Position numbers and translations under genes: made by a program. Under the pieces are notes generated by a model that saw only the letters and a program-made list of their open reading frames with translations, ran no database searches and was not told the origin of the DNA. Below are positions 34,553 to 63,175 of a stretch of 64,000 nt of DNA, piece after piece. The stretch is taken from the NCBI GenBank assembly GCA_914767715.1, contig OU612070.1, forward strand, positions 7,457,501-7,521,500, read 5' to 3'. Every line of letters begins with the position of its first letter. Position 1 is the first letter of the stretch. The DNA is from Membranipora membranacea. Taxonomy: Eukaryota > Bryozoa > Gymnolaemata > Cheilostomatida > Membraniporidae.

Positions 34553-34560
34553 CTCTGTAA
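34553..34560. repeat. Target-site duplication, left (CTCTGTAA)
   Basis: Identical to 57383-57390. The flanking bases outside (A left, C right) and inside differ, so the duplication is exactly 8 bp. Confidence 0.85.
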
Positions 34561-34568
34561 GGAAAACG

Positions 34569-34650
34569 CCCAAAACGGCCCGCGGCCCAAAACGGCCCGC
34601 GGCCCAAAACGGCCCGAGGCCCAAAACGGCCCGCGGCCCAAAACGGCCCA
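34569..34650. repeat. Terminal 17-bp GC-rich repeats, left
   Basis: Four tandem copies of CCCAAAACGGCCCGCGG (one with GAGG), then a partial copy that fuses to the first 113-bp unit through CCAGCATG. They stand out sharply from the AT-rich surroundings. Frames rich in Pro and Arg across them are artefacts. Confidence 0.9.
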
Positions 34651-36908
34651 GCATGATTTATGAGTTCTCCAAGTCCCAAAACCTCTAAAAAATGAGTTAA
34701 GTCAACGAACTTAAGTTTTTGGGAAAAAACTTAAGTTTTCAAATTTTTCAAAAAAACGGCCCATCTTGGTTTTTGAGTTCTCCAAGTCCCAAAACCTCTA
34801 AAAAATGAGTTAAGTCAACGAACTTAAGTTTTTGGGAAAAAACTTAAGTTTTCAAATTTTTCAAAAAAACGGCCCATCTTGGTTTTTGAGTTCTCCAAGT
34901 CCCAAAACCTCTAAAAAATGAGTTAAGTCAACGAACTTAAGTTTTTGGGAAAAAACTTAAGTTTTCAAATTTTTCAAAAAAACGGCCCATCTTGGTTTTT
35001 GAGTACTCCAAGTCCCAAAAACTCTAAAAAATGAGTTAAGTCAACGAATTTAAGTTTTTGGGAAAAAACTTAAGTTTTCAAATTTTTCAAAAATACGGCC
35101 CATCTTGGTTTTTGAGTTCTCCAAGTCCCAAAACGTCTAAAAAATGAGTTAAGTCAACGAACTTAAGTTTTTGGGAAAAAACTTAAGTTTTCAAATTTTT
35201 CAAAAAAACGGCCCATCTTGGTTTTTGAGTACTCCAAGTCCCAAAAACTCTAAAAAAATGAGTTAAGTCAACGAACTTAAGTTCTTGGGAAAAAACTTAA
35301 GTTTTTGGGAAAAAACTAAAGTTTTCAAATTTTTCAAAAAAACGGCCCATCTTGGTTTTTGAGTTATCCAAGTCCCAAAACCTCTAAAAAATGAGTTAAG
35401 TCAACGAACTTAAGTTCTTGGGAAAAAACTTAAGTTTTTGGGAAAAAACTAAAGTTTTCAAATTTTTCAAAAAAACGGCCCATCTTGGTTTTTGAGTTAT
35501 CCAAGTCCCAAAACCTCTAAAAAATGAGTTAAGTCAACGAACTTAAGTTTTTGGGAAAAAACTTAAGTTTTCAAATTTTTCAAAAAAACGGCCCATCTTG
35601 GTTTTTGAGTTCTCCAAGTCCCAAAACCTCTAAAAAATGAGTTAAGTCAACGAACTTAAGTTCTTGGGAAAAAACTTAAGTTTTTGGGAAAAAACTAAAG
35701 TTTTCAAATTTTTCAAAAAAACGGCCCATCATGGTTTTTGAGTTATCCAAGTCCCAAAACCTCTAAAAAATGAGTTAAGTCAACGAACTTAAGTTTTTGG
35801 GAAAAAACTTAAGTTTTCAAATTTTTCAAAAAAACGGCCCATCTTGGTTTTTGAGTACTCCAAGTCCCAAAAACTCTAAAAAAATGAGTTAAGTCAACGA
35901 ACTTAAGTTCTTGGGAAAAAACTTAAGTTTTTGGGAATAAACTTAAGTTTTCAAATTTTTCAAAAAAACGGCCCATCTTCGTTTTTGAGTTCTCCAAGTC
36001 CCAAAACCTCTAAAAAATGAGTTAAGTCAACGAACTTAAGTTCTTGGGAAAAAACTTAAGTTTTTGGGAATAAACTTAAGTTTTCAAATTTTTCAAAAAA
36101 ACGGCCCATCTTGGTTTTTGAGTTCTCCAAGTCCCAAAACCTCTAAAAAATGAGTTAAGTCAATGATCTTAAGTATTTGGGAAAAAACTTAACTTTTTGG
36201 GAAAAAACTTAAGTTTTCAAATTTTTCAAAAAAACGGCCCATCTTGGTTTTTGAGTTGTCCAAGTCCCAAAAACTCTAAAAAAATGAGTTAAGTCAACGA
36301 ACTTAAGTTCTTGGGAAAACACTTAAGTTTTTGGGAAAAAACTTAAGTTTTCAAATTTTTCAAAAAAAACGGCCCATCTTGGTTTTTGAGTTCTCCAAGT
36401 CCCAAAACGTCTAAAAAATGAGTTAAGTCAACGAACTTAAGTTTTTGGGAAAAAACTTAAGTTTTCAAATTTTTCAAAAAAACGGCCCATCTTGGTTTTT
36501 GAGTACTCCAAGTCCCAAAAACTCTAAAAAAATGAGTTAAGTCAACGAACTTAAGTTTTTGGGAAAAAACTTAAGTTTTTGGGAATAAACTTAAGTTTCA
36601 AATTTTTCAAAAAAACGGCCCATCTTGGTTTTTGAGTTCTCCAAGTCCCAAAACCTCTAAAAAATGAGTTAAGTCAACGAACTTAAGTTTTTGGGAAAAA
36701 ACTTAAGTTTTCAAATTTTTCAAAAAAACGGCCCATCTTGGTTTTTGAGTTCTCCAAGTCCCAAAACCTCTAAAAAATGAGTTAAGTCAACGAACTTAAG
36801 TTCTTGGGAAAAAACTTAAGTTTTCAAATTTTTCAAAAAAACGGCCCATCTTGGTTTTTGAGTTCTCCAAGTCTCAAAACCTCTAAAAAATGAGTTAAGT
36901 CAACGAAC
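34645..36908 (+). repeat. Left arm array of 113/134-bp units
   Basis: About 19-20 head-to-tail units, each with CGGCCCATCTTGGTTTTTGA, CCAAGTCCCAAAACCTCT, TGAGTTAAGTCAACGAACTT and AACTTAAGTTTTCAAATTTT. Spacing between CGGCCC motifs is 113 bp in about half the units and 133-135 bp in the others, which carry a second TTGGGAAAAAACTTAAG segment. The two lengths are interspersed, consistent with unequal exchange. Each unit has two or more palindromic ACTTAAGT sites. Confidence 0.92.
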
Positions 36909-37851
36909 TAGGCCAGCAGCAGCACCTCAATATTGTTTCATTGTGTGTAAGGATGATGAACAGAGAAAATTAATAGCAAATAATCAAATTATATTTATTA
37001 TTGTTTTGATTTTTGAAGTGGTACTATTCCATAAGTGGGGCAATAAATAATGTTTTGCTAAAATTATTTTCTGATGCAGATTCTACAATATTTCTGCAGA
37101 ACTAACTTGCAAAAGTTACTTGGCAACATTTAGCCAATCAAAATGGATTATTTTGACGATTAGCCAATGACAGTGCAGAGCATTTTTGTTTATAAAAGAT
37201 GGCCGCCAACCATGAGGCTTGCTGCATTAATTCCCACAACACAGAGCATATGATAAAATCCACTGATTAAATTGTCACAACAGCAACTGGACAATGCTCT
37301 GAGCAAAGCTGAGGATTGGGTTTTGCTAGACAAACAGCCTGAGCAGCAGGAATGAGGAAGCTACTGAATTACTCTGGATCAGAGAGATTAGCTACCATCA
37401 TAATGCATTATGATCATGGGATATATATTGTTGTGATAGAATGGAGAATGATGACAATAGAAATGAACATTCTTTCTATGCTCACAAAATCTGATATCTG
37501 AGATTTGCATAACAAAACTAGTAGCTGCACAGAAAGCCCACACCAGGAAAAATGTGAGTGTTAAGATGAATGATTGTGATTGTTTACTTCACTTTCAGGT
37601 TTCAATGTTTTTGTTTACTACAAGTACATTTATTTGTTTATTTCATGAACATACTAGTGTTTCTTCTAGTACTAGTAGCCTATCCTCATCCCAGGTGTTT
37701 CAATGTGATGGTAGGTTATCAATATTATTAGAAAATCAATAATTTAAAAAGATCGGGTTTATGTAAAAAAAATAGGTCTATGTAATTGTTGACCTTACTT
37801 TCAGCAAGGAGTAACTTGGCTATTACAGCTTACTCCAGTCCAAATCACAGG

Positions 37852-37967
37852 CCTTCTGTAGTTGGTGCATGTCCAGTGGTCGAGTGCCCCAGTGGTCAAG
37901 GCCTAAGAGAGAAAAGGCCTCGACCACTAGGGCACTCGACCACTGGACTTGCACCAACTACAGAAGG
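37852..37967. repeat. Strong hairpin, 53-bp arms and 10-nt loop
   Basis: Arms 37852-37904 and 37915-37967 pair at 50 of 53 positions, with outer end CCTTCTGTAGTTGGTG and the loop AAGAGAGAAA. The three mismatches are scattered. Transcription from either strand would give a long near-perfect stem. It could be a foldback microelement, a pre-miRNA-like locus or a recent palindromic duplication. Confidence 0.85.
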
Positions 37968-39229
37968 ACTATGGTCCAAATCACTACATTTAAAGCATGC
38001 CAGTTACCCATCAGCCTTTTAATGCTAGCGGGACTGGATTGCTGTTACTACTAGCAAGGCGTAACACTGCTGTTAGCATTATTAGTAGTGTTAATGTGTT
38101 GTGATAGCAGTGTTATCAAACTATCATTTATGTATTTAGAATGAAGATACATCTAGTAGTGATGATGACAACGGAAACAAGGCGACAGCTTGGTTACTCT
38201 TTACTGTTCAGTGTTTATGAATTACAGATGCTCGATTCGTTTTTTTTTTCAGCTGGCTTGTACCAAGCGACTCAAGCTAATGAAATAGAGAGCTTACTAT
38301 GATATATTTGAAAATTCTGATGATGTGGCAAGAGAAGCACACTACCATCAAACACTATTCCAGGAAGACTTATGAAAGGTGAAGGATAGTTCAAAACCTT
38401 GAAAACTCTAGAGGAGTAAATAGTTTGCTGGAGGAGATGTTCACCATTTTACACACTCCTAAGACAGGTGACATTCAAGCCTTATTTCATTTAGACTCTC
38501 ACCTCAGCTTGCCAAAAGTTAGTGCTAGCTAACATTAAGTCACCCATAAACTAGCTAAATCTCGCCAAATATTACTCCTCTAGGGTAACTATAGGTTATT
38601 TCTGTAGTGTTATATCTATTTCAGCATCTATGTTTTATTTAAAGAAGATTATGCTTGTAAAATATGTGTAGGGTGATGTCATAGGTCTAAGCAGTTGACA
38701 TCCATTACAAGAAAGCCATAACCCCCCCTTCCTCCCCCCGTGTTTATATATCTACTCGCTTGTAATACGAATAACATATTCATCCAACAGATTTGTTTTG
38801 CAAGCTTTTTAACTTAGCTGCTAGATGTGATGTGAGATAGAATCATTTTTTGTTCAAAGGTTGTTCTACCTCCTGCTGTTAACTTGAGATCCAGTTATGC
38901 GATTATATTTCCGCTCCTTAATTTTGAGTTTCATCATTCTTTCAGTGATGCAGCGAAGGAGGAAGAACCACGCAAAAAGGCTTAAAATAACTATTCCGAT
39001 CATAGATCATTGCCAAAGTCCAAGACTAAGAAGCACCAAATTTAACAAGATGACCAAGTACAAAAATACTCTGCATGCATTTGTGTCAAAGCATGTTTTT
39101 GCATGAATTTTATATTCTTGATGTCCTTTGTTGCATGCCCACACGTTGACATAGGTCACATTGCAGGTATGTGTTTTACTGCTGTATATATTCATTTGAT
39201 ACAGGCTTGTACCAATATCTACTTTCCAA

Positions 39230-39525
39230 TTAGTCAATGAAGAGGATTTGTACCTTGAATGTATTTATCAATACTGGTTTTCACAGCAGGGAATACTCGT
39301 TTTTTTTGCTTTCCTTCTTGTTTACACAGGTCATATTAATGTTGGTATTCACTTATTGTATTTTTATGTAACAATTTTATATATGTTTGTACATATATCT
39401 CACCTTCTAATTAGTCATTGACTGGATTTTTACCTTGATAAAGAATGTATTATATCAATACAGGTTTTCGATGCATTTGATAAGCACATTAGTTCGTTTG
39501 CTTTCCTTCAGCCTCTGTAGAAAGA
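39230..39525. repeat. Diverged direct duplication, about 185 bp apart
   Basis: Segments near 39235-39325 and 39417-39510 share TACCTTGA, GTATT-ATCAATAC-GGTTTTC and TTTGCTTTCCTTC. Low identity, no coding sense. Confidence 0.45.
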
Positions 39526-39674
39526 ATATGCACTCTGAGAGTTATGAACTTTACATAATTGGATTCGCAGCGAAATTCGGGTCTAGTTTCACTCAATTCT
39601 AGGTAACCCCAGAGAGATAATTATTATTAAATGCTATTTTTTGATCACTCATTGGCAAGAAGTTTCTGGACTCT

Positions 39675-40880
39675 ACCTGTTTTTCGCATCTTAACAGTTT
39701 TCCACATCTTAACTGGATCCACCCTGTCCCCATATATTCCCAATTCATAATTACACTGCTACCAGTTATTTTATATTAGGGTCTTCCTATAAAAAGATAA
39801 TGAAAATCACATATGAAGTTTATTTATCGCTGTTATTCTGGAAAGGTTGCGCAAAACCTATTTTTATGCCACAACTGTGTTTGAGGGGTGTCTACGATCT
39901 GTCTGTAAAACGTCAATAGATGGATTTAGCAGTATGATATTTTCTCAAAAACCACTCAAGATATACATGGAATTGATAAAAAAATTGCACGGACGCCACA
40001 TCCTTCTATGATCTTTGCCGAAAGAAGTTAAATGGTAAAAACGCTCTATATACCCCCTTTTCCACGTTTCTTACTTGGATCCGCCCCCTTTTGACCCATC
40101 TGTAAAATAGTACATATGCGCCATCAGAACGGCCATAAAAAACAGACAAAAGCGGTGGATGCTCATGTTTGAAGGCCGGTTTGCATTGTACGCAATTGTG
40201 TGGATGCCTTCAATGCGACAATGGCAGGGACGACACTCAGCAAGATGAGTATGACCAAATTACCGATGATGAAGACCTTGACCTTTAAACTAGTATGAAT
40301 TTGCATCCTTTCTTTGTTTTGTTTTAGCAGTGATACTTATGTGCTATTTAAAATAGCTATTAAATTCAAAATACATAATCAGATTACACGCTTAACCAGA
40401 ATAAACTTCATAAACGTTTACCTGTTTTTCACATCCCAACTGGATCCACCCCTTTCTCATATATTCTCAATTTATTATTACACTGCTACCAGATACTTTA
40501 TGATGGGGTCTTTTTATAAACAAATCATGAAAAATGACATGAGAAGTACATTTATCACTGTTATTCTTGCACGCTTGCACAAAACCTATTATTATGCCGC
40601 AACTGTGTTCGAGGGGTGACTACAATTTGTCTGTAAAACGTCAACCATTGGGTTTAGCAGTATGATATTTTCCCAAAAACTACTCAAGATATGCATGATA
40701 TTGATAAAAAAAATTCAATGACACTGCTTCATTCTATGAACTTTGCCAAGAGAAGTTAAATTGCAAAAAACGCCCTTTTAACCCCCTTTTTCGTGTTTCT
40801 TATTTGGATTCGCCCCTTTTTGCCCCATTTGTGAAATGGTACATATGCGTCATCAGAACGGGCATAAAAAACTACACCAG
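39675..40880. repeat. Two diverged direct copies of a 470-bp block
   Basis: Copy 1 (about 39675-40145) and copy 2 (about 40418-40875) share in order ACCTGTTTTTC, AACTGGATCCACCC, ATTACACTGCTACCAG, TGTCTGTAAAACGTCAA, TTTAGCAGTATGATATTTTC and CATCAGAACGG-CATAAAAAAC. The match ends exactly where the Cys-rich exon begins after copy 1. A duplication of intron-like sequence therefore surrounds that exon. Confidence 0.7.
40146..40288 (+). CDS. Cys-rich CXC-like C-terminal exon of the nested element (partial)
   Basis: A frame from a plausible acceptor (AAAAAACAG before 40146) to TAA at 40286-40288 encodes about 46 residues. It has a cysteine pattern C-x-C-x6-C-x3-C-x-C-x2-C (around KAGLHCTQLCGC) followed by an acidic tail ending DDEDLDL. 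CXC/tesmin-like clusters of this type are common near the C terminus of proteins encoded by animal transposons. An in-frame stop upstream of the acceptor means it must be reached by splicing; the upstream exons were not found. The parent protein may be incomplete. Confidence 0.4.
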
Positions 40881-40963
40881 ATACAGTCTTCAATTTTCTC
40901 TGTTCAAGACACTTACACAGATGTAATTTTTAGAGCCTTTTATGTATAGCCGCTGCTGGCCTA

Positions 40964-41195
40964 AACTTAAGTTTTTGGGAAAAAACTTAAGTTATCAAAT
41001 TTTTCAAAAAAACGGCCCATCTTGGTTTTTGAGTTCTCCAAGTCCCAAAACCTCTAAAAAATGAGTAAAGTCAACAAACTTAAGATTTTGTGAAAAAAAA
41101 AGTTTTGAAACTTTTCAAGAAATTGGCCAAGCATGATTTTTGAGTTCTTCAAGTCTTGAAACCTCTGTAAAACAACAAGTCAACAAAGTTAAGTA
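40964..41195 (+). repeat. Left arm array resumed: innermost units
   Basis: One well-preserved 113-bp unit (CGGCCCATCTTGGTTTTTGA at about 41015) and one decayed unit (GGCCAAGCATGATTTTTGAG near 41124) mark the inner boundary of the left terminal array beyond the nested insertion. Confidence 0.85.
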
Positions 41196-41344
41196 AATTC
41201 TAACCTGATAGTAATAAATGTAACAGTTGACATGGCTTAGGACAATAAAATACTATGTAAATGCAAGGGTGTCTAACTTACGTGCAGAATGTGTTTGTTT
41301 TCGTAGTACATTTCTCAATGTAGTTTACACCAGTGTATATTTCG

Positions 41345-41350
41345 TTTATT
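41345..41350 (-). terminator. Poly(A) signal AATAAA of the transposase gene
   Basis: AATAAA on the minus strand lies about 105 bp past the stop codon and just inside the left terminal array. Confidence 0.5.
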
Positions 41351-41455
41351 TTTCATCAGAGCACTCACAGAACAATGATTGGATAATAAAATATTGACAA
41401 AGATTGAACTATACTATGACAAACATACAGTGCAGTGATGTTTGACTAATCATAA

Positions 41456-44400
41456 TTATTCCGTTTCTTCCATCGTAATTGCAGATATGCCTAGCTCATC
41501 AGCCTGATATGCACTGAGCCGTAGTAGGTCTTTGAGGTTTTTCGTACGATTAAATTTATCAAAGGCTGAAAAAATTGACCTATTTATTTTAAGAAAGCGT
41601 TTATTTCTGATCCTGGTGGCCTCTCCCACCTTCACCAGCTGCACCTGTCTCAAGGCCTCCTTGGCCTCTAAAGCAAGCCTTGCCATGAGCTTCCACGTGT
41701 TTGATATTGCTTTGGTCAGGTCATTCAGCCGTTTGTGGTAGCCTATGGAAGAATGTTACAACCAAATGACAGTATACAAATTGGCAGTTAATCACAAAAT
41801 TATTAATACCAACACACCGGCAGATCGTCAGGTCCTCAGTTACTTCAGCATTGTTAGAAAAGATGCTAAATATTATTATTGTGTTGATCTGGAAGGTGTT
41901 CAGTAAAAAATAAACAAATCAAATCATTTTTTGGAATGAGAAAAAAGAACTTGTAGATAAATACGCAACAAGCATTGTAAACATGCGTTGCATTCCCTTT
42001 GATGATCCTTGGATTTTCCCTACCTTCCAAGTCATTATTGGTACGTATCTTTCGGCCAAATACTGAAACTTCTGATGGCTTCCATCTCCTTGTCCAAACA
42101 TTTTCATAATACAACAGCAATTCTTTGGCAGGGGCTGACTTTGCCATTTCTCTTAGCCAACCTAGTGCTGGAACCACTCCCTCAGGTGGAAGTAGCGCTA
42201 GTCCCATTACCATCTGGACAAATTGTTTGGTCTCGCTATCCTGGCAATATTTCCTGTACCATCCTGTGTTTCAAAATATAGGGGATGTTTAGTTTTAAGC
42301 GTGACCAGTTATAACATAATCCGGGCTAGGTGTTTGATTGATTTTGTACCTTTTGATAACTGCTTTATAACTGGCACAGGCTTATCTATGACCAGAGCAG
42401 CATAGATTAGGCCCAGCGACTTAACATATAGGTTACAAACCTTTAAGTTTTTGGAAAACTGCATTCTACGATCAGTAATTAGATTTTGGCGTCGTATTTA
42501 AATGGGACTACTGGATTGTAAACCAACACTGAGTACCAACATTTCCAGTCGGTGATGTTGATAGGGTGCTACCATAGATATAAAAACTGTTTTTATGTCT
42601 ATAGGTGCTACATATAATACTTACATTATTTTAATATAATGTTGATTCAAAAAGAGATAAACCTTGCCGTCTATCATAAAAACATACCCTCCTTGTGAAA
42701 GCATTTTTATTTTAAAGTACAGTTATATGTAACAGAAATGATAATTTATGTGAAGTTCATCAGAGACATAGTCGACCAGATGTAATATTTCCTGAAACCT
42801 GAACACCAACCGCCCAGCCCAAACCCAAACCTATAACCTAAACCAATAATTAATTAGATAGAACACATGTATGGTGTGTATACAATAGATGATGGGCTTT
42901 TAGAAAGATACTGAATAGTACAATATGTATATATGCCTAGTTTCACAATAAATGCTTGTGGCCCACTTGGTATAAGTGAGACAGAAATGGAAAGATCCCG
43001 GTCTTCATAGACAGATATATATCACACATTGAATTTCTCAAAGGAATCAAATATGCTTTAAAAAATGCTAAAATATTGAAAACTAATCAAATCAAATATG
43101 TATTTGATGATTGTAGTTGTTGTTAATTTAGGATTTGGCCTCTTATATTGTGAGTCTATTAAGATTACAGGCTAAGAGAGACCAGAGTCCTTAAGTGATT
43201 TATTTTGCCTTACTTTGAACCTGATTACCTAAACAGCAGTGTACACAGTGTGCAAAGGTCATTATCGTTCCTCTCAGAGCTCAGAATTTTGAAGAAAATC
43301 AAAAGCAGTGCAGAAAACAACTCTGAAATTCGCTAGTTATAAAATTATCTATATAGCTGTAGACTGATTTCAAGAGTGGCGCCATCTGACAAAAATTCAA
43401 AGTTTTGTAGACTGGCAAATCTCAATTTTAAGACCGGTTTTCCAACACTCTAGAGATCAACAGATGTGCATGGTGGAACACTCAGGAAAGAATAATCACA
43501 GCTTGAGTGAGAATGCATTCCTAAACCGTCAGCATCTTAAACTTCCCAGTCATTTGCACTTATATGTACCTGACACAATGGTTTGTACATATAAGTATAT
43601 GAATCAACTCACGAGCTTGCAGCCTTTTAATTTGAGTAACAATACATGACATATATGACATGACATATACAACTTGGTTGGACCTTTTGGTGTGGATGAA
43701 AGCCAGATTACAAGGCTTAGCGCTTTACCACATATCTTCATTTCGATTTTAAATATTACCATGTGATAGTACATCTTATATCATGTGCCAACATTTATAT
43801 TATGGACATTGATACGTAATTATCAAAAATAGATGTTCCTTTCTACACCTACCAAAAGCCTATTTGTGCGCATTGTTGCCAGCAAATATCTTTTGCATTT
43901 GCAAATAACTTAGCTTCATCAGAGAGATTAATAATGTGAAGCAATTTGTCATCCAACTATTGTAATTGATTTGGTAGAAGAAAAATGAAGCAGATTTATT
44001 GCAATACCAATTCATCTGTGAGATGAAATAATATAAATAATTTAAGCTCTCATACCAGGAATGGCTTTCACCTTCTTCATAATTCGTTGTCTGTGATGGA
44101 AATGGCATCCGTGAACATTTACGTTCGGCAGCACCTCACGTATAGCAGCCCACATAGCTACAATAATTGATCAACTAAGTGATTATTGATACAAATTATG
44201 CATTCTACTATTTCATTTTATGTTGAAAACAAACACATCTAGCCTTATCCAATTTTTGATCACTCCAAGACATAATGATATAAAAAAATAACCTACCTGC
44301 TTCAAAGTCCAAGTTGCAGACTTGAACTGCTACATCACCAGCAATGTCTAATATCTTTTTGAGTACCTAGTGACAAAGCAGATTCCTGTTATTACATTAA

Positions 44401-46591: not shown

Positions 46592-49500
46592 CTGTGCAAA
46601 AATAGACCATGTGGACACAGTCGACATTTACTCAGCGCAAACATATAAAAATAACTAGAACATCTAACAATATATGTATAACTGCCAATTAGCAACATGT
46701 AAAACAACCAATGTATGCTTTGTTAGGAACTGGTCAGTAACATATTTTTTTAACAGCCACTCTAATTTCATTTTACTTGCTTAAAACTCATACATCATAA
46801 CTCACTGATCTGCAAAACTCAGTGTCTGCGAGTATGTTGTGGTTGGGAGGGTGATTGTGCACTTTTTTCTGTTGGAATTCAGATTCAAGAGACATACGAA
46901 TCATCACTGGACAGCTCGGCCTTTTTGAGCATCGCCAATCTACATAGGGCTGAAAGTTATTTCATAAAAATAAAAAAAATTAAACCCGAATGTGAACCTG
47001 AACCAGTACCTTGGATATTCATCATCAGTTGGTTTACCTGGAAATTCAATAATTGTGACACCCTATAAAGAGCAGGATTTCAGAGTGTGATGAAATATAG
47101 TGTGAGAGTAGCTCCTGTTGTGTACAAGACTCAGCAAAGCTAGTGACTCTACACTGAGATTTTAATTTCACCCTTTTGTACCACCAGAAGCTGTGTTATA
47201 TGACATCAAAGTTGTCCCTATCAAATTTCATCACATGAGAACTTATAGGCCATGTGTGAGGTCACATCAGGGTTTCCGATGAAAATTCAGTATTAGGAAC
47301 CAAATTGCTTCCACCGTAGAAAATGACTCATATTGTTATGTGAGATCTAGATAAAGTGAAGAAAGCAATGAGATGATTTTCAACAGCAATGGTCAGTACT
47401 GATGACCTTAAAATATTCTTACATTATCACGACCATAGTTTTTCTCAGTGAACCTGTAACCACTGGTATGAACTAAAGCACGTGATTTTTTTTGTGTCCC
47501 GGAGTCTACAATGATGAATCTGCCGGCTTCCTCCTCCTCATCCTGATCTGTAGTTATCTCCTCATTGAAAGGGTCCGGTTCTTCATCTCTGTGTTAAAAG
47601 AATGTTGTAGTCAAGTCAGCAGTGCTGTACAATGTGCTTCCTTCTTACGTATATGCTGCTTATTCCAAGTTGGTGAGCAATTATAACATTGCATGCACAG
47701 CAGCAAAGCCCAAACTTATCGCTGTGATATGTATGTAATGACCAAAAGAAAATGTCTGAATAGCTTGGTTTTCAAAATGAAAGGATTTCCACCAACTTTA
47801 CCTTTCCTCGGGATCAAATGGAGTCGTGTACACTAGGAGCAGCGAACCCTCCTCCTCTACCCTTTCATCTTCCTGTGGGAAATGGTTTCAGTTGTTTTCC
47901 TGAATCGTAGCTACATACAAACTCAGTTACCAAAAGGTCATTTATTGCTTACAGATTGCTGTAATCATAATGCGAATAACGGAGACTCAGCTTTTTTATA
48001 ATGATTATCAAATATTGTGTCTAAAAAATATTAATAGTTAAAAAAACTGTGAAAATAACTTCCCAAAATTTCCTCTTAACACGGTTTAATATAAATTATT
48101 AGCTAATTTCCCCAACAAATTTGATTTTTTGAATAAATGGCATAACCAGTTATATGAACAGAAGCATTAATTTGAAAATTTGAAGCAGTTGTGACTTTTA
48201 GTTCGTTAGACATATAGACACATTTGTTATGATGAGAACATGTGCCTGCTTTAAAACAGAAAAGTTCACCATATCTAATAATGTTGAAAGAATTGTAAGT
48301 GGTACCTGAAAATTGTTGTCAGCTCCATCATTGCTTAGCCCAGCGAGAGAATCACCCAAAATTGAATCCATTACTTTCTCAACCTGTATGATAAATGATT
48401 TTCATGCGTAGTTAGACAACATGTAAGCCTAGAGTCAACGTTACTATATTTTTAAATCTGTTACATCCTCATACCTAATCCAAAGATGTTTCAAACAAGG
48501 TCATAATCCGTAAGATTCTGAATTGATACCTCTTCCCAACTAATTCAACTTAACATTCACTGTAGCATTCCCACCAGTCAAATAAATAAAGGCGATACCA
48601 ACATGGATTTGTCCTTCACCACATTCGGCTGTATGTAATATTAATTGATCCGTAAGCTAACACAAGTGGACATGTAAAATCATTGTAACCCCTTGAAAAC
48701 ATTTATCAACAAGTAATATCTATGCTTCAGACTTTTTCAGTAAAGTCATCTTGACGCCTCTTTGCACATTAAAACTTATCACAAGATTTTTATTTTAGTT
48801 ATCAAATCAATTGCAGATAAATATTGCATTATTAAAAACGCTCTAAGTGAAAGAAGTGAAGTTCAAGTGACATAATAAGCTTTAAATAAATTTACAGCTC
48901 GATTGTAAAGGAACAAAATAAAGACGGTACAGGTAAATTGTGCTGCTTACATCTGCAATCGGGGAAGAAGAGACTCGAGCCACTGGCGTCCTCAAAATCT
49001 GTCCAAAAGCAAAAGGAATCTTATTGCTATATTTTTAACTGAACATTGTGATTGCAGCTGCATATTACGTATGCTGACATGTCTTAATATGATTCAAATG
49101 TCCATATCTATTTTTGTATTTATCAATAACCAAGTTTTGTAAGCTATTGAGGTTAAAACTTTACAGAACTGGAGTATCATTTCAGAAATGTGACAATACC
49201 TTTGTATATTTCTGCTTGATTATAGGCTTTGGGGAACGTCTCCTTTTATTCTGATGAGCTGGCATTGGCTTTTTAGTAGATATCTGCCAAAGATGTTTAA
49301 CAGAGGGTTAAAATAAAATCTTATCTTTTACATTACAAATGTAATATTGCCCGGATTCTTAATCGATTACTTACCCTCGTCCACAAATATACAACCAGAT
49401 TTTGGTGTGGTGTTGTCCACTGGCAAGTGCCCTTACTAACCAAAATTTCACTGTCCCCTTCCCAGTCACATACTTGGATTAATGAAAACATATATTGATA

Positions 49501-51224
49501 TACTTAGATTTATTGAACATTGATGCCCTTTTCAAGCTGGTTTTTATCGACAATCAAGTGTTATGAGCTGTTCATTCAGTTCAAGAATAACTAGCACTGT
49601 AGAGTAATTCGATTTATGACAATACCTCAGCAGACTTCTGCTTGTTGATAGGTATTAGTGAGCGTACTCTTTCCTGAGCAAGACCTGGCCCTGGGTGTGT
49701 GGTAGGTACCTGTCGAAGGGGTTCAAATATAATTTCATCTTTCTATGACATATATTGTATAGTTGGAAATATCAAGCAATTACTTATCAGATTCCAAAGC
49801 CAGGGTTTGCTGTAGTGTTTTCCACTGGCGAGTGCCCTTTCGGACTAAAATTTTATGTAACCGTCCGAGCCACATACTATGTTTAATGAAAACATATATG
49901 ATATGCTTAGATTTATGTAGCCCTAATGCCTTAATTCAAGTAGGTGTTTATTGATAATCAAATGTGGTGAGCTGTTCATTCAGTTCAAGATGATATTGCA
50001 CTGTACATTAATTCAATTTATGACGATACCTCAGTATAATTCTGCTTGTTTATAGCCATCAGTGAACGTATTCTTTCCTGCCCAAGAACTTGTCCTGGAT
50101 GGGTGGCATGTACCTGGCAAAGATGTTAATCAAATGGTAAAAAAAAATTGTTTATCTTATCCATTACAAATATGATATTGCAGGTAATTTGAAGCAATTA
50201 CTTATCAAATTCCAAAGTTCTGACATAATTTGCAGCCAGATTATTGTGTGGGGATATCCACTGACAGGTGGCATTTTCAACCAAGGAAAAACAGGTGGTC
50301 TCATATGTGTACTGAGTATGTGGTATTTTTGCTTCTGTGCCACCTAACTACTCTATTCATGTGCTCTCACTATTATTACAGTAACCAAGGCATAAGAGCC
50401 ATAGATGTACATATTAGCTTGAATACATCACAATACTGTAAACCCACCAATGATACCTCTTCATCGACCACCCCATCGTTATGGTATCTATCGAGATCTA
50501 TCACCTCCTGGTAAAGAATGAATGTAGTTTAAAACATGGAATATTGATTACCACAGCCGTGATAAAATGACTTAGAGTCATGTCAAGTCATGAATCTTGC
50601 TAAATCAAGGAACAATCTGAAATGTGATACTAGCATCTGATGCATTCTTAGTTATCATACTGTCTCTCAACGACGTGGGAGTTTTAAGTGGTATTTATTA
50701 ATGTAGCGATAATAGTCTCAATGTATCACAATTCAAGTTTTACTATCCACCTTGTTTGTGCCTTTGATCTGAATAGAACTTATAAGATCACAAAACATCG
50801 CCACTGTTTTCTTAACATTGAAAAAACGTCAGGTTTGACCTAGGCAGTAGGAAAAAGGAAGTGTCAAGTTTTGATATTTGAGTTGTCCACACTTGTCAAG
50901 AGAGACCACAACTCCCAAATACGAAATTGGTACCTTTCACAAACTCACAATTCATTGCCCCAAATATGACATATTATTATTATGAAGTTATCATGGTCAT
51001 CAGATTCTGTACGACAAATCGAGTCAAATATTCAATTAAGTCAATTCACAATTTCACTAAGACAAGTCAGGTAAATTGCAATTTTACAATTTAACCCTGA
51101 CTTAACTTTACCATGACTAATATTGATACGATTTTTTTCAATCTATCCTATCCCTCGTATGATTTTACAACCTAAGCTGATATGTATAAATATATATATC
51201 AGCTTAAGTTGTAAAGCAATACAA

Positions 51225-51262
<38 letters not shown>

Positions 51263-54200
51263 TGATGCCAAAAGCTTACCACATCTTACATTTTTTCTGT
51301 AATATACTTTCGTCATGTAAAGCCAGCAAGCAACAAATAAATGTGAATATAACGATAACAACTGAAGCTCTGCGTTCAACTTAAATATAACATGCAATGT
51401 ATGCTTGTTAACATGATTGAACCACCTCTGTCAGGTAAAGGCTAGAATTTTAAAATATTATTGTAAACCCACCTCAGTCGACTGGACTAGTGGGACCCAG
51501 TGGTTAAAATTAAATGACTGGCCATCGAACCGGCAAGATGTAAACATAAGGGTTGCTGCTGGATTTCCATTGTTTGGAACATCCCTTCCAAAGACTCGAC
51601 CCGAATTCTCCGGCATATCAAGGTATTCTACTTGAGGCCATAGTAGACGTAGTGGTCTCTCCAGTATTGCAGAGAGAGCGTATACAGATGTTTTACTCTG
51701 CGCAGTTCCATTTTTCGATGAAACTTCTAAATATGCATCCCATTCGTACCTGTCCAGCTGATCAATTTCTCTAACAATGCAAACAATACAACTTGTTCTG
51801 CTGATTTTCATAGCATTTACATACAGTGGTAAAGAGTTGCTATGAACTTTTGTTAATTTGCAGGAAGGAAGTAAATGTCTCAAAATTAATCATTAAATTA
51901 AGTAGCCTACACAGTTTCCTTTTATCAGCATATCACTGGAAATGTTCATTTTCCATTGAATGGTGGCAACTGGATTTTTTTTAATTAGAAATAGAGCAAT
52001 GAGGTACAAATATGATATTCACACTATTGTTGAGATGATTACCTACATCATGGTATTATCAGTTTGGTACATTCGTTCACTTAGTTTAGAGTCCTGCACT
52101 GATAAGTTGCTTCTCTATGTTAGGAACTTGTTTCAGAACTCAAAAGAAAGTATGAAAGATGTTGTCCTGTCATAAACAAATATCAAACAGGATACCTTAG
52201 GTCAACGACTAAATCAAACTCATTTGATGATTTTTATTACTGATCACCACTGCCATTTCATACATTTGGGAGGTAGAACATTTTTCAGGTCAGGTTCAAT
52301 TGTTATCCAACCCATGCGAAAACAATAAAATGAAAGATGAGTGAAACATACCCACTATTTTCATAGTATTCTCGATAGAGAATCATCTCTATAACGGTAA
52401 GCAACCTTAGCTGGCTCTGGCTACCTTCATCTCCAAATAAAACCAGTGATACTGCATTGTAGAGGCAGTTGCCATCCATGGAGCTATATAAGGCAGCTGT
52501 TTTACAGGCCAATTGTGGAAGGTAGTGACCCAATATCTTCTGAGATGTTGGGCAAATCCTGGCTCCTTTGAAAATCAATTTTGTAACTTTGTTATAGCCC
52601 TACTGAATATTAGCCAATTTCTAATGGCCATCATGTATTACTTTGGATTTGCCCCACCTTGCATGCAGTAAAAGCAACTCCCGTTTTATATGCGGTAGGA
52701 GTAAAAAGGTATAAAAAAACATGTCACAACCAGAAACTCGTCACATAGCGGCAAACAGATGGTTCAAACTACATTGGGCATGAAACTTTGGCTAGCTTGA
52801 GTTGCGTCCTATAAAAAATTGTTAAGTTTATATTAGCTAGACTTAAATTTTGCTATTTGAGGCATGTGCGAAAGTAGAAATTTTTCTGCTGCAAATACTT
52901 TCCTCTTCTAGGATAATTGCCATCCATTAACACTAACAATTATTTTCCACCAAATAATGAAAGACAAGGCGGTGATTATTCTGTATTTCCTCTTGATATT
53001 TGGAAAAAGTTCCCTCCAGTAGTTTACAATTCATTTTAGGTTTAGCAGAAACATACCTGTTTCGGGGAAATAATCTCTGTTAGTGTTTATTTCGGGTAAA
53101 TGTACACCATACAAGTTGAGAAGAGCAAGCTCATTCTGTGCTGAAAGGGCAGTACGTCCAGCCTGATAAATCCTAGAAGTGACCAGAGGAATGAATAAGA
53201 ATGGTAGCTGCACACTGTTATGGTATGTTTGGATTATAAACTTAATTACTCATAGCTGTCAATATTCATGTGTGATGGTGTACTGTCTAGATTTATTATT
53301 AAGTTTATGGTCTAGACCCTAGACCATGAATTTTTGGATAGAGCACTATACATTTTTGCATGATGTGTGACATATTTTCAAAACCCTGGTCTACAATGCA
53401 GAAGAATCAATGTCACAATATTCATGCTAAAACTGTTGACTCTTTTTGAAGGTATTTAGGTATGCTGGCATTCAAGTTGTACTAATGGAAGCATTTAATT
53501 CATTAGACCCATACTTGCCAAGTCTCCAGATTTAGGACTGACCCTCCAGATTTTAACCCTATCTCCAATTATTGTAATTCTTGCTATTTCCTCCAGATTT
53601 TAGAGAAAACACCCCCTATTGCAATTTGTTGGTAGCTATCCAAGCACTTGTTGATAAGTTACTGGTAAGATCTTTGCACACATTAAAAGGAATCCTACTA
53701 TTCAACCACTGACTGTCATTTTTTACAATATAATGTAGCTAGTAAAGTGCATACAAATAGAAAGATAACAATGCCCAAGGTCCACTACCATTCTAAATTC
53801 AACAAATTTTGAATCAAAGAAAAGGCCGACTAGGGCCCCAGGGACCAACATGCCTTTACTCTGCAATGGAGTGGTTGATACCGGAAATTATTTCTTATTC
53901 ATTCCTTGCATATCAGTTTTGTTTGATTAACACTTATTGCAAAACAAGAGGATATGACATGAAATCAGCCTTAATATCATCGACAATGCCGCATACACTA
54001 CGGCATATAAGAAATTTACACGGACGGTCTTCAGAAATACCCACAAACAGCACATAGACCATTTGGTAAATACATGGCAATATAACAATGACTCTGCCTC
54101 TGTCAAACCAGTCAATCGATCACACAATAGTTCTTAGTTTAATGATATCAGAAGGATTCACAAAATCTTTAATTTGCTGCACCATTATCAAAACACAGAT

Positions 54201-54452
54201 GTGTGGATTGTCTATGCAGCAAAGACACTTATTTTCCACCACTCACCTTCTCAGAGCAGAAATAGAGTCATAAGTATCTCGTGTAAACACGCATGACTTA
54301 CAAAGAAAAGTGATATCAGCTCCGCTAAAATAGTCGTGCTGAGCATTTGACATGTTACATGTGACATGCAACCAATAACGGCAATTATCACACTGTATTT
54401 GTCTGCTGACATGGTTACAGTTGCACTGACGGATTTGAGGAGGGTCAGACAT
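41456..54452 (-). CDS. PHD-OTU-FLYWCH-MULE transposase, 20 exons, 921 residues
   Basis: The ATG at 54452-54450 (A at -3) opens the PHD exon and TAA at 41458-41456 closes the MULE exon. Minus-strand exons: 54452-54247, 53172-53057, 52565-52352, 51749-51473, 50507-50457, 50113-50030, 49709-49626, 49283-49200, 48998-48951, 48383-48306, 47872-47802, 47588-47423, 46949-46806, 46591-46406, 46056-45947, 45673-45526, 44366-44297, 44157-44056, 42263-42024, 41742-41456. These total 2766 nt. All 19 introns are GT-AG, every phase matches and no internal stop occurs. The product should act in the nucleus: FLYWCH binds element DNA, the MULE domain cuts and joins, PHD may read chromatin and OTU may remove ubiquitin (last two inferred). 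The only uncertainty is whether all exons belong to one transcript. Confidence 0.88.
44875..44980 (+). repeat. SINE 3'-module fragment in an intron
   Basis: A degenerate B box (GAGTTCCGATTTCAATCC) is followed by a T-rich stretch and TCTCAGCTCTTTAT, matching the copy at 14.75-14.80 kb. It lies in the intron between exons 16 and 17... more exactly in sequence separating 45526 and 44366, and does not touch coding sequence. Confidence 0.45.
46806..47588 (-). other. FLYWCH zinc finger, exons 12-13 (residues about 478-530)
   Basis: GYRFTEKNYGRDN at the end of exon 12 joins in phase 0 to YVDWRC in exon 13. This gives the FLYWCH pattern Tyr/Phe-rich strand, W498-x-C500, C506, then H524-x-H526. FLYWCH modules have the WRKY-GCM1 fold used by Mutator transposases to bind terminal repeats, so this is the likely DNA-binding part. 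The preceding half of exon 12 is acidic (several D/E runs). Confidence 0.88.
47802..50507 (-). other. Linker exons 5-11, including a triplicated 84-bp exon
   Basis: Short phase-0 exons encode a low-complexity, partly acidic linker between OTU and FLYWCH. Exons 6, 7 and 8 (50113-50030, 49709-49626, 49283-49200) are each 84 bp. Two share the pattern THPG...QER(I/V)RSL...INKQ, and the third is more diverged (KRRRSPKP...IKQK). The surrounding introns are also repeated, so the unit duplicated was genomic, about 400-425 bp. Exon 9 (16 codons), exon 10 (26 codons) and exon 11 (phase 2 at its end) follow. Confidence 0.8.
49197..50300. repeat. Threefold tandem repeat of exon plus intron, period about 404-426 bp
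   Basis: Each unit contains an 84-bp exon, then TCTGCTTG..TATAG on the plus strand, an AATTACTTA(T/C)C motif, a CCACTGGC(G/A)AGTGCCC-like block, an ATGAAAACATAT block and a GAGCTGTTCATTCAGTTCAAG block. Exonic and intronic parts are both conserved, which marks recent segmental expansion inside the gene. Confidence 0.8.
51165..51257. repeat. Intronic hairpin and TA microsatellite
   Basis: TTACAACCTAAGCTGATAT (51165-51183) is inverted, with one mismatch, at about 51196-51214, followed by a TA run at about 51228-51257. Both lie in the intron between exons 4 and 5. Confidence 0.7.
51473..53172 (-). other. OTU-type cysteine protease region, exons 2-4 (residues about 69-271)
   Basis: Exon 3 contains the OTU nucleophile block SMDGNCLYNAVSLVLFGDE with Cys141. 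Exon 4 ends with the histidine block FNFNHWVPLV, His262. D-G-N-C and N-H-W/F in this order and spacing are hallmarks of OTU deubiquitinase-fold proteases. Exon 2 supplies a helical lead-in (QAGRTALSAQNELALLNLYG). Phases are 2/1 (exon 1 to 2), 1/2 (2 to 3) and 2/0 (3 to 4), all consistent. Vertnin-like host proteins have a related Cys-His domain, so it could be a divergent OTU relative rather than an active protease. Confidence 0.75.
53281..53315. repeat. Solo end fragment of the 28.7-30.4 kb TIR family
   Basis: ACTGTCTAGATTTATTATTA followed by AGTTTATG matches the terminal repeat of the 1.6-kb element with two substitutions. It lies upstream of exon 2 in the first intron. Only one end is present. 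Confidence 0.5.
54247..54452 (-). other. PHD finger, exon 1 (residues about 10-54)
   Basis: A complete C4HC3 PHD signature is visible: C10-x-C12, C21-x2-C24, H29-x2-C32 and C51-x2-C54, with the family Trp at W27 (RYWLH). PHD fingers usually bind histone H3 tails. The start is set at 54452 because the frame upstream has no ATG, only a TTG at 54491, and because the next ATG lies beyond the first zinc ligands. Confidence 0.88.
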
Positions 54453-54545
54453 TTTGTGAAAAGATGAGGACACTGATAGGAAACTTTTCAAGATAACTGA
54501 ACTTTAGATCATGAATGCACAACAGGAAATGATAGTCAAGCTCTT

Positions 54546-54613
54546 CCTTTATTAATCTGTTAATCACTATGGTTCGTTGCATCAACGTCACGTCAATTCT
54601 AGTATCTATTGGA
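54546..54613 (-). promoter_or_regulatory. Possible promoter of the transposase gene
   Basis: On the minus strand, in order, are CCAAT (54608-54612), a CRE-like TGACGTGACG (54586-54595) and AATAAAGG (54546-54553), about 95-160 bp upstream of the start codon. These are short motifs and the call is tentative. Confidence 0.3.
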
Positions 54614-54679
54614 TTAAAAGGATAGCATTAAGTCAAATTGAGCTCATGTAGATACCCATATAACTCAATCTGTGACCAT

Positions 54680-54790
54680 GGCTGTGTGGATGAATGGATA
54701 GCTTTGCATACTGTGATACTGTGATACTGTGATGCGGGAGGCCCATGTTCAAATCCCACCAATGGCAGACCTTTTTTACGTTTTATCATC
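54680..54790 (+). repeat. tRNA-derived SINE fragment
   Basis: GATGCGGGAGGCCCATGTTCAAATCCCACCAATGGCAG is the B-box module of the family (shown in pieces: GTTCAAATCCC at about 54750, then AATGGCAG). A GATACTGT triplet repeat lies just upstream, and a T-run and TATCATCATGGTAAT follow. Confidence 0.6.
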
Positions 54791-54839
54791 ATGGTAATCG
54801 TTAGCATCATTGAATCGTGAGTTGTCAACACATTCAATG

Positions 54840-55960
54840 CCCCCCCCCGCCCCTTCTACGCATAGAACCATAACGAATATTTTATATATTAGCAAACGAA
54901 GAAAAAAAGTTTAGAGCTCTCCAAGCTGACTCTATTCAACTAAAGAGTTGACCTCATGACAATGGATTTCTTTGTCCCTCGAGGGGTGGTAACAGCATAG
55001 TTATGTAATACAATACAAACTTTATTCATCCAACCAGTATATCATGTGATACCAATGAGGTTGTGATTTACATAAGATATGCATGAATAGTTGTTTGTGT
55101 CAGTCAGGTAAAAAGATGACAATAATACGTTATCACTTTAAAAAAATTAGATTAGCCAATCGTGTTGGACAGCGAGCTGTTCATCAGTCCAGTTCTATGC
55201 TTGAAAGTTATTTTGTCCACTAGTATCAACTAGATGCGGTATGCCAGCTCTGTTTAGCCTCTCAGTGTAGGACGTGATTGTTGGATAGATAATCGGAAGA
55301 CAGAGGCTTTGTTGGTGTCCTAGTCGATCCTTGGCAATCTGGCAGGTGTATGTAAACCATGATGGGCATACATATGTTAAAATAGGTAAAATTCTTGCCA
55401 GAAAAAATTTTACAAGTAAATCTGATCTTATGCCATGTCGCTTTAATATTAATAACCCATAAACTGCTACTCAATACTGTAATCCACATTTCCAGTGCAG
55501 TGTAGGTGGTTATTTATTGGAACACCCAGTAATTGAGCCGATGGTGATTGCTCGATTACCCCGTTAGTTGCAAATAAGTGATGCATTTTATCATGGAAAA
55601 TTTGTATGGAAACTGGATATTACATGAAAATCACCATTATACAGAGTTGTCCTAACTCACAAAATGTGAAGACAACTTCTTCATCGCAATAAATTGGATG
55701 AGAAGTTAATTACTAGGAAACATCAAACATAAACTTCATAGTAAACCATACATGACTCTAGGCAAATTTACTGTCTTGCTAACGATGGGGTAATCTTCGA
55801 TTTCTATACACAATCCAGTTTCCGAAATTCAATGTCAATTGTTACGGTAGTTTTTATCAGATTATACTTTGACTAGGGGAACTCAAAGTTCATACTTGGT
55901 CGTTTTTTGCAAAAACATTTAAAATAAAATCTTTCCTCAAAACACTTTATTTGTTGACTT
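54840..55960. other. No gene seen; upstream interior of the large element
   Basis: Holds a poly-C run at 54841-54856 and an AATACAAACTTTATTCATCC block at about 55010 that looks like a retroelement 3' end on the minus strand. A 75-codon minus frame (55489-55262) is unsupported. Confidence 0.4.
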
Positions 55961-55964
55961 CACT

Positions 55965-57293
55965 CGTTTTTTAGAGGTTTTGGGACTTGAAGAACTCAAA
56001 AACCAAGATGGGCCGTTTTTTTGAAAAATTTGAAAACTTAAGTGTTTTCCCAAAAACTTAAGTTCGTTGACTTAACGCATTTTTTAGAGGTTTTGGGACT
56101 TGGAGAACTTAAAAACCAAGATGGGCCGTTTTTTTGAAAAATTTGAAAACTTAAGTTTTTTCCCAAAAACTTAAGTTCGTTGACTTAACTCCTTTTTTAG
56201 AGGTTTTGAGACTTGGAGAACTCAAAAACCAAGATGGGCCGTTTTTTTGAAAAATTTGAAAACTTAAGTTTTTTCCCAAAAACTTAAGTTCGTTGACTTA
56301 ACTCCTTTTTTAGAGGTTTTGGGACTTGGAGAACTCAAAAACCAAGATGGGCCGTTTTTTTGAAAAAATTGAAAACTTAAGTTTTTTCCCAAAAACTTAA
56401 GTTCGTTGACTTAACTCCTTTTTTAGAGGTTTTGAGACTTGGAGAACTCAAAAACCAAGATGGGCCGTTTTTTTGAAAAATTTGAAAACTTAAGTTTTTT
56501 CCCAAAAACTTAAGTTCGTTGACTTAACTCATTTTTTAGAGGTTTTGGGACTTGGATAACTCAAAAACCAAGATGGGCCGTTTTTTTGAAAAATTTGAAA
56601 ACTTATGTTTTTTCCCAAAAAGTTAAGTTTTTTCCCAAATACTTAAGTTCGTTGACTTAACTCATTTTTTAGAGGTTTTGGGACTTGGAGAACTCAAAAA
56701 CCAAGATGGGCCGTTTTTTTGAAAAAATTGAAAACTTAAGTTTTTTCCCAAAAACTTAAGTTCGTTGACTTAACTCCTTTTTTAGAGGTTTTGAGACTTG
56801 GAGAACTCAAAAACCAAGATGGGCCGTTTTTTTGAAAAATTTGAAAACTTAAGTTTTTTCCCAAAAACTTAAGTTCGTTGACTTTACTCCTTTTTTAGAG
56901 GTTTTGGGACTTGGAGAACTCAAAAACCAAGATGGGCCGTTTTTTTGAAAAATTTGAAAACTTAAGTTTTTTCCAAAAATACTTAAGTTCGTTGACTTTC
57001 CTCGTTTTTTGGAGGTTTTGGGACTTGGAGAACTCAAAAACCAAGATGGGCCGTTTTTTTGAAAAGTTTGAAAACTTAAGTTTTTTCCCAAAAACTTAAG
57101 TTCGTTGACTTAACTCATTTTTTAGAGGTTTTGGGACTTGGAGAACTGAAAAATCAAGATGGGCCGTTTTTTTGAAAAATTTGAAAACTTATGTTTTTTC
57201 CCAAAAAGTTAAGTTTTTTCCCAAATACTTAAGTTCGTTGACTTAACTCCTTTTTTAGAGGTTTTGGGACTTGGATAACTCATAAATCATGCT
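55965..57293 (-). repeat. Right arm array of 113/134-bp units, inverted
   Basis: About 12 units carry the same motifs as the left arm in reverse complement (TCAAAAACCAAGATGGGCCG and AGAGGTTTTGGGACTTGG), mostly in the 113-bp form. Two units near 56610 and 57200 have the longer TTTTTTCCCAAATACTTAAG insert. The array is shorter than the left arm by roughly 1 kb. Confidence 0.92.
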
Positions 57294-57382
57294 GGGCCGT
57301 TTTGGGCCGCGGGCCGTTTTGGGCTTCGGGCCGTTTTGGGCCTCGGGCCGTTTTGGGCCGCGGGCCGTTTTGGGACCGAACC
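57294..57382. repeat. Terminal 17-bp GC-rich repeats, right
   Basis: Four to five copies of GGGCCGTTTTGGGCCGC or variants, ending GGGACCGAACC at the target duplication. They mirror the left terminus, apart from the final 8 bp, which have diverged. Confidence 0.9.
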
Positions 57383-57390
57383 CTCTGTAA
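57383..57390. repeat. Target-site duplication, right (CTCTGTAA)
   Basis: Exact copy of 34553-34560. Removing the element plus one copy would restore a continuous GAACTCTGTAACAATAAC target. Confidence 0.85.
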
Positions 57391-62860: not shown

Positions 62861-62934
62861 TAATAATATGAACTTTATTTCCTATTCAGTGCCCCTTTCG
62901 AGGTAAATGAGAATATTGTTACATAAGATTGATG

Positions 62935-63175
62935 CTACATGATACACGATACATAAAATTGATGATACATGGTACATGATACATATATTGATGATACATG
63001 ATACATGATACATGATACATGATACATGATACATGATACATGATACATGATACATGATACATGATACATGATACATGATACATGATACATGATACATAAG
63101 ATTGATGATAAATGATACATGACACATAATATTGATGATACATGATACATGATGCATGTTACATAATACATGATG
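62935..63175. repeat. 7-bp minisatellite (CATGATA)n
   Basis: A near-perfect run of CATGATA units at about 62985-63093, with imperfect units and TAAGATTGATGATA interruptions on both sides. It is open in several minus frames, which are artefacts. Confidence 0.9.

Follow-up and report, generated by a model that had tools for sequence, protein, structure and literature searches.

A Phantom-like Mutator-type transposon with an intact multi-domain gene in the bryozoan Membranipora membranacea

What occupies positions 34561 to 57382 of a 64,000-nucleotide stretch of the genome of the bryozoan Membranipora membranacea (contig OU612070.1 of assembly GCA_914767715.1, positions 7,457,501 to 7,521,500, here called the window and, in our own numbering, G000:C6:7457501-7521500; genome G000 has 339,339,785 bases in 18 contigs)? 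The original prediction, made from the letters alone, was a complete 22.8-kb transposon of the Mutator type, with an intact multi-domain gene and signs of recent activity. We confirm that the element is real, a complete Mutator-type transposon with an intact multi-domain gene. More fully, we read it as an autonomous cut-and-paste Mutator-like element (MULE) of Phantom-like kind, whose spliced gene most likely encodes one transposase with the domain roles proposed below, and we give this reading a probability of roughly 0.88. Judged by its sequences, the family is young and recently mobile, since near-identical full-length copies are present elsewhere in the genome.

The boundaries of the element are sharp. 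An exact 8-bp target-site duplication, CTCTGTAA, lies on both sides, at 34553-34560 and 57383-57390, as had been claimed. When 3,000 pairs of positions were drawn at random from the window, a direct match of 8 bp turned up in 0.13% with equal offsets (0-30) and in 2.6% with free ones. Taken alone, the duplication is therefore modest evidence, but it becomes strong once the ends and the other copies are added. The outer 8 bp of the two tips are unlike, GGAAAACG on the left (type A1, 34561-34568, plus strand, outside the inverted repeat) and GGTTCGGT on the right (type A2, 57375-57382, read on the minus strand). Inward of them, both ends have the same inverted structure, five CCCAAAACGGCCC cores with a 17-bp period (34568-34649 on the plus strand, 57294-57374 on the minus strand) followed by tandem arrays of 113/133-bp units. 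The left array comprises an outer part at 34640-36910 and, past a nested insert, an inner remnant at 40962-41166 (both plus strand), and the right array, inverted, lies at 55871-57303 (minus strand); the inverted arms extend for 618 nt at 96%, which bears out the complex inverted ends that had been described. Long terminal inverted repeats of this sort are a trait of the MULE superfamily, as are target duplications of 8-11 bp (8 bp for the window copy and 9 bp for one on contig C3), and terminal inverted repeats made of tandem repeats with asymmetric tip motifs are foldback-like ends of the Tm1 type. A further CTCTGTAA inside the element, at 41163, was considered as a second insertion boundary and rejected: it sits in a diverged array copy, and the full-length copies on contigs C7 and C3 have the same letters there.

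The span of 22.8 kb is inflated by a foreign transposon of 4.05 kb lodged within the left array. The array stops at 36910 and restarts at 40962, and the 4,051 bp in between (36911-40961) end in GGCCAGCAGC(A/G)GC, carry three collinear inverted blocks no more than 145 bp from the ends, and are bordered by TA at 36909-36910 and 40962-40963. The C7 and C3 arrays run through this site without the insert, with variation among units leaving the exact pre-insertion letters uncertain. This unrelated transposon entered the left array of the window copy later. Three of its open frames yielded no Pfam domain, and part of its interior is duplicated in diverged form (39691-40061 and 40418-40789, about 81%). 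Once the insert and one TA are removed, the element proper measures 18,769 bp, or about 18.8 kb; the predicted completeness thus stands, and the predicted size does not. The interior, 41200-55800, is about 14.6 kb long, short of the internal region of more than 20 kb by which giant transposons are defined in a passage of PMC6431247, so that the "recently active giant element" of the original prediction keeps its recent mobility and loses its "giant".

Does the interior encode a protein? A spliced-frame search of the minus strand, refined by homology, yielded a 16-exon model of 808 aa (41456-54452), in which all 15 introns are GT-AG, the phases match, and no stop occurs before the end. A gene finder with generic parameters, no anchors, and no training on the element scored the element's minus strand at 72.5, against 1.8 for the opposite strand and 9.2, 5.6, 0.8, and 3.5 for the two flanks on both strands. 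It recovered 1,824 of the 2,427 coding bases of the 16-exon model, whose own score on this scale is 60.5. Up to four more in-frame candidate exons at 48951-50113 allow a total of 16-20, and the spliced-frame finder, in one of its settings, gave 20 exons that included a zero-length one. The exon count is thus best modelled as about 16, with 20 possible; the open, phase-matched gene of the original prediction survives, and the figure of exactly 20 exons gives way to 16 supported ones. A tandem duplication of about 404 bp lies in a long intron (49443-49799 and 49847-50217) and may represent duplicated exons.

Read along the minus strand, the predicted protein has the order PHD-like finger, OTU protease, FLYWCH-like finger, and MULE/DDE transposase. 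The PHD-like zinc finger is encoded by exon 1 (54247-54452), and exon 2 (53057-53172) leads to the OTU part in exon 3 (52352-52496, with a DGNC motif) and exon 4 (51473-51770, ending NHWVPLV). A linker follows, formed by exon 5 (50448-50507), which is without homology support, exon 6 (48306-48383), and the acidic exon 7 (47802-47872). Exon 8 (47423-47588) carries an acidic stretch and the first half of the FLYWCH-like finger, and exon 9 (46806-46949) the second half. Exon 10 (46406-46591) and exon 11 (45947-46056), recognised only through homology to the relative P0001, precede the MULE exons, namely exon 12 (45526-45673) with the first catalytic D (YLDGTFK), exon 13 (44297-44366) with the second D (NLDFEA), exon 14 (44056-44157) with a GCHFHH motif, exon 15 (42024-42263) with the catalytic E (RTNNDLEG), and exon 16 (41456-41742), which ends in the stop.

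In the best single frame, the Pfam scores are 18.6 bits for MULE and 19.2 for OTU; after splicing they rise to 40.9 and 28.0, past the cut-offs of 27.6 and 23.3, with both matches spanning exon joins. The claim of an intact multi-domain gene holds. The OTU part also weakly matches OTUD1 among solved structures (E=0.0076), and a PDB search with the transposase profile gave no match. The PHD and FLYWCH assignments are based on conserved residues and alignment with relatives, and we accordingly write PHD-like and FLYWCH-like: the W, C, C, and H positions of the latter align with the FLYWCH of P0001 and P0002, and BLASTP matches the former to the fingers of relatives. D206, D272, and E389 (transposase-half numbering), which we take to be the catalytic DDE residues, are invariant in all rows of a 3-row alignment; D206 and D272 are also invariant in a 25-row alignment, and E389 is not among its invariant positions. 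No integrase-core family appears among the Pfam families listed up to E=1 for the spliced protein, and a core of the Ginger1 type was thus not found.

Related proteins bear on whether these domains belong together. A profile search found 60 of them, including proteins from Saccostrea, Mercenaria, Dreissena, Pecten, Mytilus, Branchiostoma, Anneissia, Pectinophora, and Rotaria; a single-sequence search with an early, incomplete version of the protein returned two relatives only, and scans of viral contigs and genome contigs returned none. Oyster, mussel, and lancelet relatives have a PHD-FLYWCH-MULE layout, as in the window protein. By pattern, a PHD-like N-terminal finger occurs in 6 of the 60 (oyster, mussels, lancelets), and Pfam at E up to 0.1 detects PHD in 9 of 25 scanned rows (the window protein and 24 of the 60 relatives); OTU is detected by Pfam in the window protein only among these 25. 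One metagenome protein, P0013, combines an OTU-like region (27.8% over 151 residues, E=2.8e-4 among the 60) with FLYWCH-MULE in one continuous chain. PHD and OTU were seen together in none of the 60 relatives, many of which are partial. A tree of the window protein and the 36 relatives of at least 430 aa groups it with P0028 and P0035 at a support of 85/84, under the 95/80 mark, so that its placement is not firm; the highest identity of the window protein within the tree set is 35%, to a lancelet protein.

The region might instead hold two genes, a PHD-OTU gene that ends just past exon 4 (stop at 51458) and a FLYWCH-MULE transposase that starts at exon 6 or later. Exon 4 does run on to a stop after a few codons, the two parts have gene-finder scores of their own (15.7 and 36.1), and a precomputed Pfam column gives OTU for 0 of the 60 relatives. 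However, modelling the region as a single gene gives a score of 60.5, and as two genes a combined 51.8 (the gap is not large), P0013 unites the OTU-like region with FLYWCH-MULE, and PHD-like fingers are joined to MULE in the oyster, mussel, and lancelet proteins. We consider two genes unlikely, and prefer a single multi-domain transposase.

Is the element mobile? The original prediction was to fall if no other copy existed, and a genome search did find others, including two of full length. A 208-base end query matched at least 468 pieces (40 of 153 first-look candidates were scored), a count of pieces and not of copies. Copies were examined in 18 genome stretches and then in four more. The C7 copy measures 23,541 bp and the C3 copy 17,276 bp, the latter with a 9-bp target duplication, CTCGTTCAC. 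The interior of the window copy differs from that of C7 at 100 of 14,560 aligned bases (K80 0.0069) and from that of C3 at 92 of 14,559 (K80 0.0064), and C7 and C3 differ at 28 of 14,757 (0.19%; K80 0.0019). Most of the length difference is accounted for by the number of repeat units in the two arrays (19+11 in the window, 22+48 in C7, 12+7 in C3), and among the three, the window copy alone has a 63-bp intron insertion (48400-48462). In C7, the gene is open in all 16 exons with every splice site kept; it has a 3-bp in-frame change in exon 8, and its stop falls two codons later. The C3 gene is broken by a 30-bp deletion that takes out the last part of exon 11 together with its donor. A copy on contig C4 (20 kb examined) is without the core past 50179 and part of exon 12, and one on C5 has suffered two large deletions in its interior and shows a gap in exon 10, which leaves an open gene in two of the five long copies examined. 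The C5 copy (L060/L059) has kept an 8-bp duplication, GTTAGCCC (read by eye), but its left tip is missing the outermost bases.

Shorter derivatives share the ends of the full-length element. Four (L044, L045, L046, and L048) retain parts of the core that lie within 41200-43257 and have lost nearly everything else; in L045 and L046 the retained core is partly present as inverted duplicates, and in L044, 41163-43257 is joined to 55808 onward. Foreign interiors were ruled out for the 5.4-6.8-kb copies, as comparison shows internal deletions of the same element. L047, L050, L051, and L052 are essentially arrays only (0.65-1.1 kb), and L053 (3.0 kb) has an interior of about 2 kb that matches neither array nor core. 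Tips and duplications were surveyed in 13 copies, with L049 and the single-ended L054-L056 left out. Both tips are readable, with at most two mismatches, in 11 of the 13 (the exceptions are C5 and L050), and in every one of these 11 an A1 tip is paired with an A2 tip. An exact duplication of 8-9 bp flanks five of them, with L052 and L053 representing one duplicated insertion. L052 and L053 (on C2, about 20 kb apart), like L050 and L051 (on C5), have matching flanks and unlike lengths, probably because host segments were duplicated and the elements in them later grew or shrank.

Several of our results weigh against a mobile element with one functional multi-domain transposase. The PHD-like finger scores 18.3 bits (cut-off 24) and the FLYWCH-like finger, on a single exon, 14.0 (cut-off 23.6), both below the Pfam cut-offs, and FLYWCH is absent from the Pfam families listed for the spliced protein. 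The N-terminal PHD-OTU half, used as a lone query, found no relative among 1,130 candidates. No target duplication flanks six of the 11 copies with readable tips (L039-L041, L044, L045, L046, L048, and L051), several of them young, and the C7 copy is among them, although its gene is open. Window and C7 have exon and intron substitution rates of 11/2,421 and 70/10,452 (p=0.26), the difference being non-significant in all three pairs (p=0.26, 0.76, 0.07), and their codon changes number 3 silent and 7 amino-acid-changing. With exon and intron rates alike and changes of this kind, selection on the gene is not demonstrated.

The missing duplications, together with the flanks common to L052/L053 and to L050/L051, which look like duplications, could suggest segmental duplication or an exchange of chromosome pieces, rather than transposition, as the origin of the long copies. 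We regard this as highly improbable, given that the window and C3 copies have unlike 8-9-bp duplications exactly at their tips, and that the 9-bp flanks are unlike among the three full-length copies. When the flanks of the copies without a duplication were compared crosswise by eye, no match was found; exchange between copies is one possibility that could account for the missing duplications. Transposition thus remains our explanation for the long copies.

A weightier alternative, to which we give a little less than even odds, is that the family jumped recently and is now immobile, its open genes being too young for decay. The window copy has acquired the nested insert and its private 63-bp insertion, the C3, C4, and C5 copies are broken, and there is no clear purifying selection. 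On the other hand, two open copies persist, and the C7 and C3 interiors are only 0.19% apart. Recent mobility, as we read it for this family, is common to both accounts.

MULEs generally move by means of a DDE transposase that binds at the terminal repeats, makes the cuts, and inserts the element, leaving a staggered duplication of about 8-11 bp (PMC6446971, PMC3169594). The anatomy described here fits this mechanism. We infer that the transposase protein is made, binds the arrays, and is helped in transposition by its OTU and PHD parts. The MULE/DDE core would cut the element ends, with recognition of the 17-bp/113-bp repeat arrays probably left to the FLYWCH-like finger. At donor or target sites, the PHD-like part probably acts on chromatin, perhaps by reading histone tails at targets, and OTU on ubiquitin marks; OTU might stabilise the transposase or act on ubiquitinated chromatin or repair factors. 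For OTU and Ulp1 in Ginger and other elements, a repair role is proposed in a passage of PMC2836005. A bolder version, put forward tentatively and with more doubt than confidence, is that this is a still-mobile, intron-rich, 17-23-kb animal MULE in which the PHD reader and OTU deubiquitinase of a single polypeptide steer target choice or transposase survival via ubiquitin and histone marks.

The genome also contains other MULEs. The MULE family model matches at least 32 places in G000, a search that misses split genes, and the window transposase matches three of eight examined MULE loci at E ≤ 0.01, with 24-28% identity. Three strong matches (60-63 bits) are clustered at G000:C10:14068994-14130001 (L001-L003); the window transposase has no tblastn match there at E ≤ 0.01, and this cluster therefore belongs to another MULE family. 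Outside the element, remains of a non-LTR-like retrotransposon adjoin it at 59706-60832 (plus strand; extent to 60832 by eye), with a reverse transcriptase domain at 59706-60020 (Pfam 5.4e-13), and a 7-bp minisatellite of about 34 copies lies at 62932-63174. A retrotransposon fragment guessed by eye within the element, at 55198-55619, found nothing in Pfam, in PDB, or in comparison with the nearby reverse-transcriptase region.

One genome thus has open full-length, broken full-length, internally deleted, and array-only copies, all with the same ends, a series that lets one test how repeat-array ends grow and how big elements shed dependants. The gene bears on why the transposases of several superfamilies (Ginger, Helitron, and some MULEs) carry OTU, Ulp1, or PHD, as described in parts of PMC2836005 and PMC6446971. 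In the openly licensed literature, we found no paper on FLYWCH with OTU in a transposase, searches for OTU with MULE likewise led nowhere, and for bryozoan Mutator elements nothing turned up beyond an apoptosis-domain paper, judged by its title.

Among known systems, Ginger1 also fuses OTU, Ulp1, or PHD to a transposase in animals (PMC2836005), on a Gypsy-integrase-type core, whereas the window element has a MULE core. Two MULE entries in PMC6446971, compared by description only, each resemble part of the arrangement. MuDR-6_HM of Hydra (group 14) is listed with an ovarian-tumour (OTU) gene, but its entry lists neither a terminal inverted repeat nor a zinc finger, and Rehavkus combines a PHD finger, a minisatellite, and a 9-bp duplication in a MULE-like element, with OTU and FLYWCH not listed in its entry. 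There is also a likeness to the Phantom MULEs (group 20, PMC6446971) and nematode Tm1 (PMC3169594), described in parts of these papers as having FLYWCH plus MULE, 8-10-bp duplications (9 bp for most Tm1), and foldback-like tandem-repeat ends; Tm1 also has short tip motifs that are not inverted, as a rule with a single type at each end (PMC3169594). We call the element Phantom-like for its FLYWCH-like finger ahead of MULE, its target duplications of 8-9 bp, and its ends of foldback-like type. Unlike Phantom and Tm1, the window element has a PHD-like finger and OTU N-terminal of FLYWCH-MULE, and its family has about 16 exons and a length of 17-23 kb; Tm1-A is given as 496 aa, with FLYWCH and MULE the only domains named for it in a section of PMC3169594.

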